The notes under the pieces were generated by a model, which was not told the origin of the DNA, did not search any database, and worked only from the letters and a program-made list of their open reading frames with translations. Positions 23,093 through 29,293 of a stretch of DNA of 64,000 nucleotides are shown here, piece after piece. Origin of the DNA: Denitratisoma oestradiolicum (GTDB lineage: Bacteria > Pseudomonadota > Gammaproteobacteria > Burkholderiales > Rhodocyclaceae); contig NZ_LR778301.1 of NCBI RefSeq assembly GCF_902813185.1, positions 3,142,001 through 3,206,000 on the forward strand, read 5' to 3'. Position 1 is the first letter of the stretch; the number at the start of each line of letters is the position of its first letter. The translations under genes were made by a program, and so were the position numbers.

Positions 23093-25384
23093 ATGCCTGC
23101 CAAGAAGCGCACTCCCAAGACCCCGCCCTCCTCTGCGTTGCCCGAGACTAAGCCCGTGCTGGCTCACCGCTTCGCGCCCCTGCTGCGTCCCGTGGCAACC
23201 CTGTTGTTGCTGGTGGTGGTTGCCGGGCTGGGGTGGTATTTCCTGGGAGGAGGCAAACCGGGGGCGCCCGCTCAGTCGCCGGCTTCCCGCTACGTGGGCG
23301 CCCAGGCCTGCGCCGGCTGCCACGAGGCGGCGATGCGGGAATGGCAGGGCTCCGACCACGCCCACGCGATGCTGGAAGCCAAAGGCGAAGCCCTGCGCGG
23401 CGACTTCGCCAATGCCACGCTGCGCCAGAAAGGGCAGGAGGCGAAATTCTTCATGCGCGAGGGCAAGCCCTTCGTCCACACCGAGGGCGTCGACGGCAAG
23501 CCCGGCGACTTCGAGATCCGCTACACCTTCGGCTGGTATCCCCTGCAGCAGTATCTGGTGGATATGGGCCAGGGCAAACTGCAAGCCCTGCCCTTCGCCT
23601 GGGACAGCCGCGACCAGGCCCAGGGCGGCCAGCGCTGGTTCACTCTCTACCCGGAGCAGGCACCGAAACCCGGCGATAGCCTGCACTGGACGGGACGGGA
23701 CCAGAACTGGAACTTCATGTGCGCCGGCTGCCATTCGACCCATCTGGAAAAACGCTACGACGCGAAGAGCGACAGTTTCGACACCCGCTGGTCCGACATC
23801 GCCGTGGCCTGCGAGGCCTGCCACGGCCCCGGCTCCGCCCACGTGGAATGGGCCAGGGCGGGGGGCAAGGCCGGCGGCAACAACGGATTGACGGTGGCGA
23901 AGGCGCCGGCCGGCCAGTGGACCTTCGCCACCCCGGGCCAGGGCATCGCCCATTGGACGGGGGGCGAGCGGCGCGAGGCCATGGCCCCCTGTTTCGCCTG
24001 CCACAGCCGGCGGCGCGAGATCGCCAATCCCCTGAGTGGCGACGTGCCCTTGCTCGACCAGACGGTGCCCAGCCTCTTGGAGCCGGGGCTGTACAGCGCA
24101 GACGGCCAGATCGACGGCGAGGTCTTCGAGTACGGTTCCTTCCTGCAAAGCCGCATGTACCGGGCCGGGGTGATCTGCCAGGACTGCCACCAGCCCCACA
24201 GCGGCAAGCCGCGCCTGACGGGCAACAACCTGTGCGCCCAGTGCCATGCGCCAGCGACCTTCGACACGCCGGCCCACCATCATCATCAGGCCGTCGGCAA
24301 AGGCAGCCAGTGCGTGGATTGCCACATGGCGGGCAAGACCTATATGGGCGTGGATTTCCGTCGCGACCACAGCTTCCGCCTGCCGCGCCCCGACCTGAGC
24401 GAGAAGCTGGGAACGCCCAACGCCTGCACCGGCTGCCACCGGGACAAGCCCGCGAGCTGGGCAGCGGCCCAGGTGCGCGGCTGGTTGAAGGATGCAGGGC
24501 GCGAGCCGGGCAGGGATCATGCCCCCGTGGCCGAAGCCCTGACCGCCGCACGGCAGCACAGGGCCGAGGGCGGGCCGGCACTGCTGGCATTGCTGGACCA
24601 TCGCGACACCTCCCCCATGGCCCGGGCCACGGCCCTGGCGGCCCTGGCCGATTACCCCGGCCCTCTGGCCCAGGAGAAACTGCGGGCGGCGATCAATGAC
24701 CCGGAACCCCTGGTGCGCCTGGCCGCCCTGTGGACCTTCCGCCTGCTGCCCGAGCCAGAGCGGGACCGCCTGCTGCTGGGGCGCCTGAACGACGAGGCGC
24801 GGGCAGTGCGAATCGAAGCGGCGCGGTTGGCTGCCGCCATCCCCGACAACCGGCTCGACAGTACCGACCGGGCGCGGCGGGACACCGCCCTGGAAGCCCT
24901 GGTCGCCAGCGAGACCATCCATCTCGACCGGCCCGAGGCCCATCTGAACCTGGCCCTGATCCACCTGGCCCGGGGGCGAGCGGCGGAAGCGGAAGCGGCA
25001 CTGAACCAAGCCCTGGCGATGGATGCCGGCTTCGCCCCGGCCCGCATCAACCTGGCGGACCTCTACCGGGCGACGGGGCGCGACAAGGAAGTGGAACCCC
25101 TGCTGCGGGAAGGCCTGGGGCTGGCGCCGAAGTCCGCCGACCTCAATCACGCCCTGGGCCTCTTCAAGGTCCGGCAGGGCGAACGCGCGGCCGCCCTGGA
25201 CCTGCTGGCCGCCGCCGCCAAGGCGGCCCCGGACAATCCCCGCTACACCTATGTCTACGCGGTGGCCCTGGCCGACATTGGTAAAAAGGCCGAGGCCCAG
25301 GCGGTGGCGCAAAAGGCCCTGGCCCGCACCCCCAACGACCCGGCCCTGGCGCAGTTGCTGGGGCAGTGGCGGGGGCATCAGTGA
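23093..25384 (+). CDS. Octaheme cytochrome c fused to HEAT-like and TPR repeats
   Basis: A 763-residue protein with an N-terminal membrane anchor (PVATLLLLVVVAGLGWYFL, about residues 33-51), then eight CxxCH heme sites between about residues 73 and 449 (CAGCH twice, CEACH, CFACH, CQDCH, CAQCH, CVDCH, CTGCH). After these come HEAT-like repeats (about 490-580) and TPR units (HLNLALIHLARGRAAEAEAA onward). This architecture matches multiheme cytochromes of the c-554/nitrite-reductase-like group carrying TPR tails; I see no clear catalytic Lys-type heme motif. It follows the BatD gene by 13 bases, so it is probably co-transcribed, which suggests the MoxR/Bat machine may help mature it. Electron-transfer partner unknown. 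Confidence 0.88.
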   Translation: MPAKKRTPKTPPSSALPETKPVLAHRFAPLLRPVATLLLLVVVAGLGWYFLGGGKPGAPAQSPASRYVGAQACAGCHEAAMREWQGSDHAHAMLEAKGEALRGDFANATLRQKGQEAKFFMREGKPFVHTEGVDGKPGDFEIRYTFGWYPLQQYLVDMGQGKLQALPFAWDSRDQAQGGQRWFTLYPEQAPKPGDSLHWTGRDQNWNFMCAGCHSTHLEKRYDAKSDSFDTRWSDIAVACEACHGPGSAHVEWARAGGKAGGNNGLTVAKAPAGQWTFATPGQGIAHWTGGERREAMAPCFACHSRRREIANPLSGDVPLLDQTVPSLLEPGLYSADGQIDGEVFEYGSFLQSRMYRAGVICQDCHQPHSGKPRLTGNNLCAQCHAPATFDTPAHHHHQAVGKGSQCVDCHMAGKTYMGVDFRRDHSFRLPRPDLSEKLGTPNACTGCHRDKPASWAAAQVRGWLKDAGREPGRDHAPVAEALTAARQHRAEGGPALLALLDHRDTSPMARATALAALADYPGPLAQEKLRAAINDPEPLVRLAALWTFRLLPEPERDRLLLGRLNDEARAVRIEAARLAAAIPDNRLDSTDRARRDTALEALVASETIHLDRPEAHLNLALIHLARGRAAEAEAALNQALAMDAGFAPARINLADLYRATGRDKEVEPLLREGLGLAPKSADLNHALGLFKVRQGERAAALDLLAAAAKAAPDNPRYTYVYAVALADIGKKAEAQAVAQKALARTPNDPALAQLLGQWRGHQ

Positions 25385-25585
25385 TCCTGCGATGGGAGGC
25401 AGAAGTGCTGGTGGATAGTGCTTTGGCATCGGGCTGCATGCGGCCAGAAGCGGATGCCCAACCGCAGACCGCAAAGCGGTCATTCGGATTCGTCATCAGG
25501 GGCTGGGGTATGATGCCCTTCGCATCTCACTTAAGAAGTTATTAGGGATCAATGACCTCCGCAACCCAATGTTCGCATACAGCAT
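25385..25585. other. Intergenic lead-in to the cassette array
   Basis: Between the cytochrome stop and the first attC-like hairpin I see no gene. The segment contains a short imperfect palindrome (ACCGCAGACCGCAAAGCGGT, about 25460-25480). GC drops here relative to the preceding operon. No attI site or integrase gene is recognisable. Confidence 0.4.
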
Positions 25586-25633
25586 GCGCTAACAATCTGC
25601 GCCGAGTCATGCGGCAACCAGCTGAGTTAGGGC
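25586..25633 (+). repeat. attC-like site upstream of the first cassette
   Basis: GCGCTAAC at the left end faces GTTAGGGC at the right end, with an inner GCCG...CGGC stem and imperfect middle pairing, the layout of a short integron attC. A second small palindrome (GTTAGGGC...GCCCTATAAC, 25626-25654) overlaps its right end. Identity with the two downstream sites is low, so this one is the least certain. Confidence 0.5.
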
Positions 25634-25678
25634 ACAAGGCTGCGCCCTATAACCAAGTTATGTGTTTGGAGACTCGCC

Positions 25679-26122
25679 TTGAAAGCTCGTGAGTGGCTTG
25701 AGCGCGGAAATCAGATGAGCGACCCCATTGACGTCTTCTCAAGTTATTGGCGCGGCTTCAACAACCTGTTCTCGTCGGTCGGCCAGGGGCAGGAGCGAGA
25801 TCTCATCAAAAGTTACCTTGGCGTAAACATTTCGCCCGAGCAGGCGCAGGAAGTCTTGGACAAAAATGCTACTGAAATTGACTACTTGCTTTCGCAACCA
25901 GTCATCGACATGCGGGGTAATGGAAAAGACACCCTGCCCAATATCGACGCATTCCAGGGTGCCGCCGATACCAAAGCCAAGTTATCCGAACTCTTCATGG
26001 TTATCTACCAAGTGAGGTGCAATCTTGAGCATGGACAGAAATCTCCAACCAGTGACCGCGATGTTCGGCTTTGCGCCTGCGCAGCCCCGATCGTTTCCTA
26101 TGTTCTTGAGCGAAACGCATAA
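25679..26122 (+). CDS. Cassette gene 1: HEPN-like protein of unknown function
   Basis: A 147-residue protein. I do not recognise a named family, but the C-terminal part has an HEPN-type motif: YQVRCNLEHGQKSP, with R113 and H118 spaced R-x4-H, followed by a helix rich in Cys/Ala. HEPN domains are helical RNA-binding or RNase modules common in toxins and defence proteins. The TTG start at 25679 has GGAG seven bases upstream; an ATG at 25715 is the alternative. It lies between two attC-like sites and therefore fits an integron cassette. GC is lower than in the flanking core genes. Confidence 0.6.
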   Translation: MKAREWLERGNQMSDPIDVFSSYWRGFNNLFSSVGQGQERDLIKSYLGVNISPEQAQEVLDKNATEIDYLLSQPVIDMRGNGKDTLPNIDAFQGAADTKAKLSELFMVIYQVRCNLEHGQKSPTSDRDVRLCACAAPIVSYVLERNA

Positions 26123-26185
26123 CGCTGCGGCCCACCGGACGCTGCGCGATAAAGCCGCACAGCGCCAGTGACCTCCACGTTGGAA
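26117..26185 (+). repeat. attC site after cassette 1
   Basis: GCATAAC (R''-like) at 26117 and GTTGGAA (R'-like) at 26179 bound an imperfect inverted repeat: AACG-C-TGCGGCCCACCGG pairs with CCAGTGACCTCCACGTT, with an unpaired extra base as in functional attC sites. The inner part CGCTGCGCG-ATAAAGC-CGCACAGCG folds tightly. It starts inside the end of cassette gene 1 and ends 11 bases before cassette gene 2, the expected geometry. A clearly related core lies at 28322-28372. Confidence 0.75.
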
Positions 26186-26195
26186 CTCACAGTCC

Positions 26196-27014
26196 ATGCG
26201 CAAAGTTATCCCCTCTCCCGTTATTGCTGTCGTCGCCTCGATTGCGTCTCATCGCGAGACACATGCGTCGATGGACAACTTGTTCATGTATGCGGGTGCC
26301 CCAGGCGACCCCCCAGAAGGGAGTAAATGGGTAAAGGCTCAAGAGTGGCTACGTCGGGTAAATACAGATGGATCGGTTCAACCCCTCCAGGTTCTTGGCC
26401 GGCTCATCGAAGGTTACATGGAAGAGCTTCCGCCTGAGGGCAGCCCATTCGACAACACTCCGCCACCTAGCCAGACACCAGATCAAGAGAAGCTGACCAA
26501 GATCCTCGCGCGCTATGAACTGCAATACGTCCGCGGTGGCTCAATCGTTGGAGCACTCGGCATTCCATCCAGAACACTTGAGGAGTTTGTCCGCGAAAGG
26601 GACATCGCTGCTCTGGAACATGAATTCAACCGCGCGCTTGAGAATGTTGACGAAGACCCACGAGAGGCCATTTCTGCGGCGAGCAATATTCTGGAAACCC
26701 TCTGCAAGGTGTACATCGATGAGCAGGGACTCGAGATGCCTGCAAAACAGGACCTCAAGCCTGTGTGGAATGTCGTTCGCAAAGACCTTGGCTTTGATCC
26801 AGGCCGAGTGGAAGATCAGGACCTCCAAACCATTCTGACTGGGTTGCTTGCACTCGTTGATGGAATTGGCGCGCTAAGAACCCACGCGAGTTCTGCGCAC
26901 GGAGCGGGAAAGAAGTCATACAAACTTGAATCTAGGCACTCACGCCTTGCGGTTCATGCTGCGCATACTGTGGCGCTGTTTGTTCTTGAGTCGTGGGAGC
27001 GCAAGAAGAAATGA
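26196..27014 (+). CDS. Cassette gene 2: abortive-infection C-terminal (Abi_C) family protein
   Basis: A 272-residue protein. The C-terminal half (about residues 135-265) matches the Abi_C/abortive infection family: ALEHEFNRALENV, then a helical region and GALRTHASSAHGAGKKSYK (R228...H235), the R-x6-H signature of that HEPN-like family. The N-terminal half is variable and not recognised. The ATG lies 11 bases after the preceding attC, typical of cassette genes read from a leaderless or short-leader transcript. Abi_C proteins are associated with phage defence by growth arrest; that role here is inferred. Confidence 0.72.
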   Translation: MRKVIPSPVIAVVASIASHRETHASMDNLFMYAGAPGDPPEGSKWVKAQEWLRRVNTDGSVQPLQVLGRLIEGYMEELPPEGSPFDNTPPPSQTPDQEKLTKILARYELQYVRGGSIVGALGIPSRTLEEFVRERDIAALEHEFNRALENVDEDPREAISAASNILETLCKVYIDEQGLEMPAKQDLKPVWNVVRKDLGFDPGRVEDQDLQTILTGLLALVDGIGALRTHASSAHGAGKKSYKLESRHSRLAVHAAHTVALFVLESWERKKK

Positions 27015-27090
27015 GTTCCAACCCGGCATTCGAGCGGACCTGCGCGGATAACCTCGCAGCAGAGGCGTCATGGGCCAACAAAGGCGGGAG
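27015..27090 (+). repeat. Degenerate or truncated attC-like segment between cassettes 2 and 3
   Basis: The sequence GAGTTCCAACCCGGCATTCGAGCGGACCTGCGCGGATAAC just after cassette gene 2 has the look of the left half of a long environmental attC (R''-like TTCCAAC followed by GC-rich arms). No matching GTTRRRY right end follows before cassette gene 3, so the site seems to have lost its right half. Confidence 0.4.
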
Positions 27091-27094
27091 CGCG

Positions 27095-27715
27095 ATGTAC
27101 AACTATCCAGCAAAGTCCTTAGACATCCAGGCACGATTGATGACGCTCGGCCTCAACCATAATCATCTGATGCTAATGGGTGCCTTCATCACAGCCTACG
27201 GTCTCTTCGAGACCACGCTCGAACGCGCGCTTTGGACTTTGAGTGAAAGGAGCATTGAAGGCGTCCGTCCTTTCACTGAGACGATGAACACCGAAGCCCA
27301 ATTCAAGATGCTCGGTGCGGGCAGTTCTAAATTGAGCGACAAGAGTAACGCCGTCCTAAGGGTCGCAGCCCATGCCGCAGAGGACTTGAATGAGTATCGG
27401 AATAGCCTTGTTCATGGCTATATCCTGTCCTTTGGCCCGGACAGCGTTCCCAGCTTCATGAAAAATCCTCATTGGCACGGCGCGACGGGTAGGAAGAAGG
27501 CTGTTGGTGACGCCTACATCAACGAGCCTATCCAAGACCTGGTCCTCATCGCTGCCTGGAACCTGTTCGCGCTCGTTCGCGAAGTTGAGAGAGTCTTCTC
27601 TGACCCCAATGCTCAGCAAGCGATCGAAGGCATGAAGGATGACGTCGCCCGAGCAAAAAGCTACGCGGGCGAAGCCCGTCATCTACGGTCCCTTATGAAC
27701 CATGAAAAGTATTAA
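27095..27715 (+). CDS. Cassette gene 3: HEPN-like protein of unknown function
   Basis: A 206-residue, mainly helical protein. I do not recognise a named family. It contains EYRNSLVHGYI with R102-N103...H107, the canonical HEPN R-N-x3-H form, set in a long helix bundle (FITAYGLFETTLERALWTL; DLVLIAAWNLFALVREVERVF). The start at 27095 (MYNYPAKSLD) is preferred because GGGAG lies four bases upstream; an earlier in-frame ATG at 26993 would overlap cassette gene 2. Catalytic residues look intact, so an RNase-type toxin or RNA-binding role is possible but unproven. Confidence 0.6.
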   Translation: MYNYPAKSLDIQARLMTLGLNHNHLMLMGAFITAYGLFETTLERALWTLSERSIEGVRPFTETMNTEAQFKMLGAGSSKLSDKSNAVLRVAAHAAEDLNEYRNSLVHGYILSFGPDSVPSFMKNPHWHGATGRKKAVGDAYINEPIQDLVLIAAWNLFALVREVERVFSDPNAQQAIEGMKDDVARAKSYAGEARHLRSLMNHEKY

Positions 27716-27730
27716 TTAGACCTGTCGCAG

Positions 27731-28219
27731 ATGCCCACCGTTTTGTCACTACCTCAGCCCGTCATTGACCTTTGGCGTTCGCAGCAGGCTCTTGCGAAGC
27801 ACTATTCCCATACAGGTTTAAAGTTCACACTAGACGGGCGCTTGGTTGGCGATATCGCCGAGGCGTTAGCTCTTGAGCACTTTGACCTCAGTCTGCCGGC
27901 AAAGCGCACGAAGGGTGTAGATGCGATGACTGCGTCGGGCGACTCCGTGCAAGTGAAGGCATCAGGCTTGAAGAATGCAGGACCGGCCTTTACCCCTGGG
28001 ACTGGTATCGCTCGCTATTTGCTATTCTTTTACTTCGACTTTCCGGCGGGCTTGGCAACGATCCTCTACAACGGGTTGGAGGCGCCGGTTCGAGCCCAGC
28101 TGCTCCCAAAGGAATGGACTGGCACGCGGGTTGTGAATCTAGCAGCACTGCGAGATCTTGCCCACGAACTTGGAGATGCGAATGCGTTGCCACTTAAAAA
28201 GCAGACGGTAATACCCTAG
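27731..28219 (+). CDS. Cassette gene 4: predicted PD-(D/E)XK-like protein (DUF6998-like)
   Basis: A 162-residue protein with a probable restriction-endonuclease-like core: GDIAEALALEHF (Glu in helix 1), KGVDAMTASGDSVQVKAS (Asp, then Q-V-K in place of E-x-K), followed by ARYLLFFYFDF. It resembles the small DUF6998 family. There is no attC between it and cassette gene 3 (15-base gap), so the two may travel as one two-gene cassette. An attC follows at 28298. Activity is uncertain because the usual E-x-K Glu is Gln. Confidence 0.55.
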   Translation: MPTVLSLPQPVIDLWRSQQALAKHYSHTGLKFTLDGRLVGDIAEALALEHFDLSLPAKRTKGVDAMTASGDSVQVKASGLKNAGPAFTPGTGIARYLLFFYFDFPAGLATILYNGLEAPVRAQLLPKEWTGTRVVNLAALRDLAHELGDANALPLKKQTVIP

Positions 28220-28297
28220 CCTTCTGCCGGTCCCTAGTGCATCGAACGCGGCCGAGATCGTCAAATCTGGAAATAGCTCCAGCAACCGGTTGATGGC

Positions 28298-28372
28298 GAT
28301 CAACCTCGCTTCCTTCGGTCGCTGGACGCTGTGCGATAAAGCTGCGCAGTGCCAATTAGCTCTACGTTGAAC
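28298..28372 (+). repeat. attC site after cassette 4
   Basis: R''-like GATCAAC at 28298 and a perfect R' GTTGAAC (GTTRRRY) at 28366 bound a hairpin whose core TGGACGCTGTGCGATAAAGC...GCGCAGTGCC is a diverged copy of the core of the site at 26117-26185. Both cores keep the sequence GCGATAAAGC at the apex. Confidence 0.75.
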
Positions 28373-28469
28373 GTCTGCTATCTTTGGGTAGCGACCGGCG
28401 GCTATGGGTCGATAGCGGTAGCTCGATGTAATCCGCACCCCGCATGGAAGATCACCCGTGATGAACAAA

Positions 28470-28503
28470 AAAATGGCGCGGTCATTGCCGCGCCATTTTT
28501 ACA
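28470..28503 (-). terminator. Terminator shared at the 3' end of the SDR gene
   Basis: ATGGCGCGG-TCATTG-CCGCGCCAT is a perfect 9-base-pair stem flanked by A-runs on the left and T-runs on the right, so it can act in both directions. Read on the minus strand it follows the SDR stop by about 20 bases and ends in seven T residues. Confidence 0.85.
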
Positions 28504-28519
28504 GCGGAAGACGGCGTCT

Positions 28520-29293
28520 TCAGCTATGCACACCGCCATCGATGCGGATCACTTCGCCGTTGATGTGGGCGCCGTCGGCAGAGGCCAGCATGGCGATGAC
28601 GCCGGCCACGTTCTCGGGCTGACCGAAGCCGTTGAGCGGGGAGAGGTGGGTGATCAGGCTGTAGTCCACGCCCTCGGGAAAGCCGGTGGCCATGGCCTGG
28701 GTCAGCGGGGTGCTGATGCCGCCGGGGGCCACGGCATTGACCCGCACGCCGGTCTTGAGGAATTCCCAGGCCAGGGTATGGGTCATGGCGGCCACGCCGC
28801 CCTTGCTGGCGGCGTAGGCGGCCATGTAGGGATGACCGAAGTAGGAAGAGGTGGAGGCGGCATTGACGATGTTGCCTTTGCGCTGGATCAGATGGGGCAT
28901 GGCTTCGCGGCAGAAGAGGAAGGTGCCCCCCAGGTTGACCTGGACCACGTTCATGAAGTGTTCGAAGGTGGTTTCCTGGGTGTGGGTGGCGCGCAGGAAG
29001 CCGGCCATGTTCACCAGCACGTCGAGACCGCCTTCCCTGGCGACGAAATCGGCGACGGTCTTCTTCACGGCGGCTTCATCGGCGATGGAGGCCACGGCAT
29101 GGGCAGCCCGGCCGCCGTGGGTGGCGGTGGCCTGGGCCAGGGCGACGGACTCCTGAAGGCCGGCTTCGTTGAGGTCCACGGCCAGGGCGACGGCGCCTTC
29201 GGCGACCAGGCGGATCAGGGTGGCGCGGCCGATGCCGGAGGCGGCGCCGGTGACGATGACAATCTTGTGGGCAAAACGGGAAGAGGTGCTCAT
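28520..29293 (-). CDS. Short-chain dehydrogenase/reductase (SDR), classical type
   Basis: A 257-residue NAD(P)-dependent oxidoreductase. The Rossmann motif is TGAASGIG, followed by VNMAGF, the catalytic Ser of AASTSSYFG and the YAASKG Tyr/Lys pair, and it ends with IRIDGGVHS. Classical SDRs oxidise or reduce secondary alcohols or ketones; the substrate here is not readable. It is monocistronic, with its own terminator. Two more SDR genes lie at 35440 and 47679, which suits an organism catabolising steroids or terpenoids. Confidence 0.88.
   Translation of the reverse strand: MSTSSRFAHKIVIVTGAASGIGRATLIRLVAEGAVALAVDLNEAGLQESVALAQATATHGGRAAHAVASIADEAAVKKTVADFVAREGGLDVLVNMAGFLRATHTQETTFEHFMNVVQVNLGGTFLFCREAMPHLIQRKGNIVNAASTSSYFGHPYMAAYAASKGGVAAMTHTLAWEFLKTGVRVNAVAPGGISTPLTQAMATGFPEGVDYSLITHLSPLNGFGQPENVAGVIAMLASADGAHINGEVIRIDGGVHS

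Follow-up and report, generated by a model that had tools for sequence, protein, structure and literature searches.

A detached integron cassette array with putative HEPN and PD-(D/E)XK nuclease genes in Denitratisoma oestradiolicum

Four small genes on the chromosome of Denitratisoma oestradiolicum were analysed within a window of 64,000 nucleotides (the whole stretch of DNA studied, C1:3142001-3206000; the genome comprises 4.29 Mb on two contigs). All four were located on the plus strand between a cytochrome gene and a convergent SDR gene, and the open reading frames (ORFs) confirmed the single direction described in the initial annotation. The genes are best interpreted as a chromosomal cluster of attC sites lacking integrase (CALIN), situated 3' of the cytochrome gene, in which genes 1 to 3 would encode HEPN-type RNases and gene 4 a PD-(D/E)XK nuclease, with at least gene 2 serving in phage defence. 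The probability of this reading was estimated at roughly two in three. Coordinates of all features are collected in Table 1.

A DNA search with attC1, the site following gene 1, produced matches in 68 of 150 relatives (own genome included). From 20 regions of relatives, 35 attC sequences were extracted, and 28 of these, representing 15 genomes and none from the present one, were aligned to give our own covariance model (R1; 21 base pairs). Both hairpins reported in the initial annotation, attC1 and attC2, were recovered by R1 at their exact coordinates (scores in Table 1); the score of attC1 was partly circular because the relatives in the model had been found through similarity to it, attC2 being less affected. 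The core said to be common to the two sites also held, a pattern derived from both having two matches in the window and none in 100 shuffles. Folded as single-stranded DNA, the bottom strand of attC1 gave a z of -3.6 against shuffles and that of attC2 a z of -2.1 (5 of 200 shuffles equally good); for attC2, the DNA fold of lowest energy was not the attC hairpin. The outer R'' of attC2 was apparently degenerate (GGTTGAT versus YYAAC in long-type relatives, as judged by eye from the alignment). A third attC proposed at 25586 (25586-25632, plus strand) scored 5.4 bits (E 3.7) with filters off, and as many as 29 of 200 shuffles folded as well as its bottom strand (z -1.1). Because R1 also overlooked two attC-like sites, visible by eye, that adjoin relatives of gene 1, a divergent site at 25586 was graded as unsupported and not as excluded.

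With two attC sites by R1 and the nearest integron integrase 0.27 Mb away, the array shows both traits that define a CALIN (at least two attC sites and no nearby integrase), in agreement with the type first assigned to it. The accompanying claim that there is no integrase was correct for the neighbourhood and incorrect for the genome: an intact integron integrase is encoded at C1:2898426-2899370. It scored 487 bits, the cut-off being 265, contained no stop codons and was the sole hit over the cut-off in the genome, and none of 14 control genomes passed that cut-off. Beyond the 5' end of the integrase, a resident array was marked by attC matches at 2903680, 2905177 and 2907102 (41, 33 and 28 bits, respectively; E 8.6e-7 to 0.003, whole genome). 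The position of the integrase was orthologous in both congeners, with adjoining flank DNA 80-87% identical over approximately 0.6 kb.

Several further features were recorded in connection with attC-like sites elsewhere in the genome. The resident attC stretch contained a group II intron reverse transcriptase (L010 1771-3531), and near-identical reading frames spanned such a reverse transcriptase near attC-like sites at two places (L010 1771-3531 and L089 3203-4939), the GIIM domain being shown in the former only. A YoeB/YefM toxin-antitoxin pair was present inside the resident array in reverse orientation (L010 5252-5754). A lone attC-like match of 29.6 bits (C1:2050027-2050097; L088 2028-2098) stood just before a small gene read as cytochrome c-like, with a recombinase hit below the integron integrase cut-off nearby.

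By its profile matches, gene 2 is an AbiJ-like HEPN protein. It matched PF14355 (Abi_C) with E 4.8e-19 (68.7 bits, cut-off 24) and the PADLOC AbiJ model with E 3.7e-13 (residues 144-270, model positions 157-280 of 281), and R228 and H235 were invariant in four of four sequences, so that a profile match was combined with a conserved R-x4-6-H. AbiJ is counted among the HEPN families in PMC3710099. The match to PHROGs (E 3.8e-17) was to a family of unknown function. Matches to gene 2 were found in 180 plasmid records, all 20 of those listed being annotated as 'abortive infection family protein', and among 369 genomes of the class the gene was present in two at E 1e-20, own genome included. An AbiJ-like relative 43% identical to gene 2 was observed elsewhere on the same contig (C1:1846026-1846793; L101), with one stop codon near the end of the match.

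The initial annotation had suggested a portable defence or toxin set, which remains the best reading of these putative nuclease cassettes. Its defence part is strengthened by another pair of detached cassettes in this genome (C1:3889659-3892573; L086 3660-6574). One holds a DUF4917/SIR2-like gene (PADLOC PDC-S21, E 1.5e-110), followed by an attC match of 24 bits (E 0.03, whole genome), and the other a DRT9 reverse transcriptase (Drt9, E 5.9e-208), followed by one of 37 bits (E 1.5e-5, whole genome). The 213 nucleotides preceding the DRT9 reverse transcriptase folded better than 200 of 200 shuffles (z -3.1) and contained a terminator-like hairpin (by eye), and the DRT9 cassette therefore probably includes a DRT9 RNA; in the DRT9 system described in PMC12483538, the RNA is encoded directly ahead of the reverse transcriptase gene. 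A literature search for integrons together with DRT9 returned no paper with both among its best matches. Weighing against defence, the other cassettes of this genome and those of the congener G001 gave no or weak PADLOC matches: there was none for three genes in the resident array, nor for the three that precede two solitary attC-like sites.

The cassettes might instead have been retained as growth-arresting RNases, that is, as stress or toxin cargo rather than for phage defence. Such a role is proposed for integron HEPN cassettes in PMC3710099, and toxin-antitoxin genes do occur as cargo, namely the YoeB/YefM pair of the resident array and a BrnT/BrnA pair in an array of G001. However, neither gene 1 nor gene 2 leaves space in its cassette for an antitoxin gene, the profile matched by gene 2 is AbiJ and no toxin-antitoxin family, and the other detached set carries DRT9. 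Stress or toxin cargo was consequently regarded as unlikely.

The motifs VRCNLEH, LRTHASSAH and YRNSLVH, from which genes 1, 2 and 3 had all been called HEPN, were present as quoted. Taken alone, R-x4-6-H means little, because it was carried by 37 of the 47 other non-overlapping ORFs of at least 100 amino acids in the window (9 of the 16 up to 280 amino acids; these being mechanical ORFs rather than annotated genes). A HEPN call from the motif alone was rejected for this reason, conservation in homologues being what counts. The assignment stood for gene 2 by profile; deep conservation and the order of the helices gave it good support in gene 3, and for gene 1 it was no more than likely.

The true start of gene 3 was placed at the ATG at 27095, where its homologues begin, which differs from the initial annotation. 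Relatives were found in nine plasmid records, in Chromobacterium amazonense and in one Lysobacteraceae genome; three more were detected on viral contigs by a search with the alignment, none being found there with the single sequence and none in phages. Gene 3 was present in one of the 369 and one of the 150 genomes, in each case its own, and had no match in PHROGs. In a six-sequence alignment that included relatives of 25-28% identity, R102, H107 and G108 were invariant (6/6), and R102 was followed by a polar residue throughout (N in five sequences, H in one); across 25-82% identity, R102 and H107 were among the few invariant residues. The structure model was all-helical (predicted local distance difference test (pLDDT) 74). 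R102 and H107 lay close to where the third long helix ends, and the conserved E39 and E43 in the long helix preceding it, an order that agrees with the HEPN layout in PMC3710099. Model confidence dropped around R102 and H107 (62, then below 50), and fold searches with the model gave no significant match. This deep conservation, together with the modelled helix order, indicates that gene 3 probably encodes a HEPN RNase.

Relatives of gene 3 were seen in the following surroundings. On an Agrobacterium plasmid, the relative was located between an annotated restriction endonuclease gene and a pPIWI-associated nuclease gene, in a cluster (L115 1-5543) that also contained AbiE genes and a caspase-family gene. 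Two of the relatives on viral contigs adjoined a gene for a 717-amino-acid protein, with an AAA_13 domain in one scanned copy.

Gene 1 had no match in Pfam, PADLOC or NCBIfam and a weak one in PHROGs (E 0.022; family of unknown function). The search of the 369 genomes gave matches in four, own genome included, one of which (G272) was dropped, the stretch lying in a frame that we read, by our own judgement, as MreC beside MreB. The two real relatives, in G327 and G349, were 51-53% identical, and in both an attC-like sequence holding the stop codon lay directly 3', with a further R' end just upstream (by eye); R1 found attC sites elsewhere on the same contigs. Since an attC-like sequence adjoins both relatives, gene 1 is a cassette gene in three of three cases. 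RCNL, H118 and GQKSP were invariant in all three sequences, the residue after R being C. No relatives were found in plasmid, viral or phage searches, the single-sequence structure model was too poor to use (pLDDT 43), and comparison of the profiles of genes 1 to 3 did not unify them (for genes 1 and 2, the probability was 29% across 47 columns, none of them in the motif). Judged from its conserved residues, gene 1 is likely to encode a HEPN RNase.

The array could also be real with gene 2 as its only defence gene. Genes 1 and 3 would then encode small helical cassette proteins of another kind, such as regulators or partners, in which R..H has a different role. The lack of a profile match or significant fold match for either protein, and the frequency of R-x4-6-H by chance, would fit this explanation, and no name for either family was found in the profile libraries searched (Pfam, PADLOC, NCBIfam and PHROGs among them). 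It was nevertheless considered rather unlikely, given the invariance of R and H in distant gene 3 relatives, the HEPN-like order of the helices and the retention of RCNLxHG in all gene 1 sequences.

The PD-(D/E)XK assignment of gene 4 proved plausible. Gene 4 matched PF22522 (DUF6998) with E 2.4e-35, and E44, D64 and Q74-V-K76 were invariant in three of three sequences, corresponding to E..D..(Q/E)xK. A weak match to PADLOC mREase_II (methyl-directed restriction enzymes; E 8.4e-5) covered 48 residues, and that to Eco15I (8q5m) was not significant (E 1.1). The PHROGs match (E 1.4e-10) was to a family of unknown function. Among the 369 genomes, nine gave a match to gene 4, own genome included, the other eight matches being weak and partial. 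A literature search for DUF6998 returned no paper. Plasmid relatives of gene 4 were found in six records, and in the two surrounding regions that were read no gene 3 relative was present.

The ends of the cassettes suggested how the array was assembled. In a free cassette, both ends together make one attC. The end of gene 2 contained TGAGTTCCAAC, which pairs with GTTGGAACTCA on the R' side of attC1 over 11 nucleotides exactly, a length reached by 2 of 20,000 random pairs of pieces from the array stretch. This complement joins the two ends of gene 2, which was therefore formerly a cassette of its own whose attC has lost its right half. The remaining left half, absent from the initial annotation, resembled an attC of the congener array (80% over 41 nucleotides) and one in a class 1 integron (88% over 42 nucleotides), and formed no hairpin of its own (fold z 0.35). 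At the ends of cassette 1, the 5' boundary shared six exact complementary nucleotides with the R'' side of attC1 (GTTATG at 25657), which alone is not significant. The R1 search gave no attC separating gene 3 from gene 4, and these genes may act as a pair or be an accidental fusion. As read from the sequence, the array would have comprised cassette 1, cassette 2 and one cassette holding genes 3 and 4, cassettes 2 and 3 having since fused. That fusion, the half attC, the degenerate R'' of attC2 and the lack of a promoter-like site at the array could mark a functionless relic of old cassette capture, which is quite unlikely given that all four ORFs are open with residues conserved in their relatives.

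A stretch of 7.3 kb in the congener G001 was bracketed by the same two flanking genes, the cytochrome gene being 85% and the SDR gene 91% identical in DNA sequence. Its first half contained three attC sites (48-61 bits), each with a cassette unlike those described here: a monooxygenase-like gene (ABM), a gene for a protein with a below-cut-off DUF5655 match (weak PADLOC candidates PDC-S18, E 9e-4, and PDC-S11, E 4e-3) and the BrnT/BrnA pair already mentioned. The remainder held other genes. The shared spot may reflect turnover of one old array or have been used twice. Neither congener offered an empty version of the site for comparison: G001 is itself occupied, and in the third congener the SDR match and the best cytochrome match (49% identical) were on different contigs. 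A survey of 27 cytochrome loci from 24 of 199 genomes searched (approximately 1.5 kb on either side) gave five attC-model matches at E <=0.1 in four loci: two in this genome (one per strand), one in the congener that shares the locus and one weak match in each of two others (L129 and L131).

Base composition agreed with the expectation for acquired DNA, GC content being 54.6% in the array stretch and 69.9% and 61.8% in the flanks, and GC at third codon positions 0.55-0.63 in the array genes compared with 0.87 in the cytochrome gene. A scan of 25300-28600 gave no promoter-like site, and the interval from the cytochrome gene to gene 1 held no terminator-like site on the plus strand, which makes read-through from the cytochrome gene the likeliest source of transcript. 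A terminator-like site inside gene 2 (26957-26975) was within the number expected by chance.

Table 1. Features of the array and its flanks (positions in the window).
Feature	Position	Strand	Basis or remark
Multihaem cytochrome gene	23093-25384	+	Upstream flank of array
Probable R' end of cassette 1 (its 5' boundary), GTTATGTG	25657-25664	+	Complementarity and sequence
Gene 1, 147 amino acids, TTG start, single-gene cassette	25679-26122	+	ORF; conserved YQVRCNLxHGQKSP
attC1, short type	26117-26185	+	R1, 78 bits, E 2.2e-18
Gene 2, 272 amino acids, AbiJ-like, C-terminal HEPN (Abi_C), R228-x6-H235	26196-27014	+	Profiles
Half attC after gene 2 (left half, remnant of the gene's own site)	27013-27058	+	Sequence similarity and 11-nucleotide complement
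Gene 3, 206 amino acids, unnamed all-helical family, R102-x4-H107	27095-27715	+	Homologues, alignment, model
Gene 4, 162 amino acids, DUF6998, probable PD-(D/E)XK nuclease	27731-28219	+	Profile, conserved motif
attC2, long type	28298-28372	+	R1, 53.1 bits, E 1.3e-11
Terminator-like hairpin	28469-28500	.	Between array and SDR gene; within stretch common to congener
SDR gene	28520-29293	-	Downstream flank, convergent with array

Under the CALIN and defence reading, the cassettes would have been placed at this spot by integron attC recombination, and the distant integrase could move them in trans; that a functional integrase can mobilise CALINs in this way is described in PMC12444791. The array would be transcribed through read-through from the cytochrome gene. 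By analogy with its family, gene 2 may act by abortive infection, its N-terminal part sensing infection and the C-terminal HEPN domain cutting RNA, while the products of genes 1 and 3 would act as small HEPN RNases and that of gene 4 as a DNA nuclease. If the RNase reading is true, genes 1 and 3 represent two unnamed families of small, portable candidate defence proteins, and detached arrays become tied to defence cargo; the locus itself is a clean case of cassettes kept at a distance from the integrase. A far more speculative extension, which we consider improbable, is that the sedentary integron of the genus feeds satellite arrays at fixed chromosomal spots remote from the integrase. In these arrays, small defence systems would be stably stored: the AbiJ-like protein, the two unnamed HEPN families, the nuclease, the SIR2-like protein and DRT9 together with its RNA. 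Genes 3 and 4 would then make up a new two-gene HEPN/nuclease system.

The general ideas are not new here, since HEPN cassettes and defence-bearing integrons have already been published. PMC3710099 named HEPN cassettes of integrons in 2013, and three 2025 studies, as described in PMC12409362 and PMC12444791, report that integrons store defence genes. Like known CALINs, the present array combines at least two attC sites and no nearby integrase with an integrase elsewhere in the genome and a position that recurs in a related species; it differs in having two full attC sites and one half, and cassettes of HEPN and nuclease-like type. Conserved CALIN positions are reported in Xanthomonas (PMC12444791), and detached arrays have been proposed to be degraded integrons (PMC9024848). 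Like AbiJ and Abi_C proteins, gene 2 has a C-terminal Abi_C domain, R-x6-H and a further N-terminal part, although the AbiJ match covers the C-terminal part only. The integron cassette family of PDB 3jrt, as presented in PMC3710099, likewise consists of HEPN-type proteins encoded as cassettes; searched against PDB sequences, the gene 1 profile did not retrieve 3jrt at E 10. Finally, the array resembles the defence-bearing integrons of Darracq 2025, Kieffer 2025 and Getz 2025 (via PMC12409362 and PMC12444791) in carrying small putative defence genes as cassettes, whereas here the arrays are detached from the integrase and their defence role is predicted from the genes.

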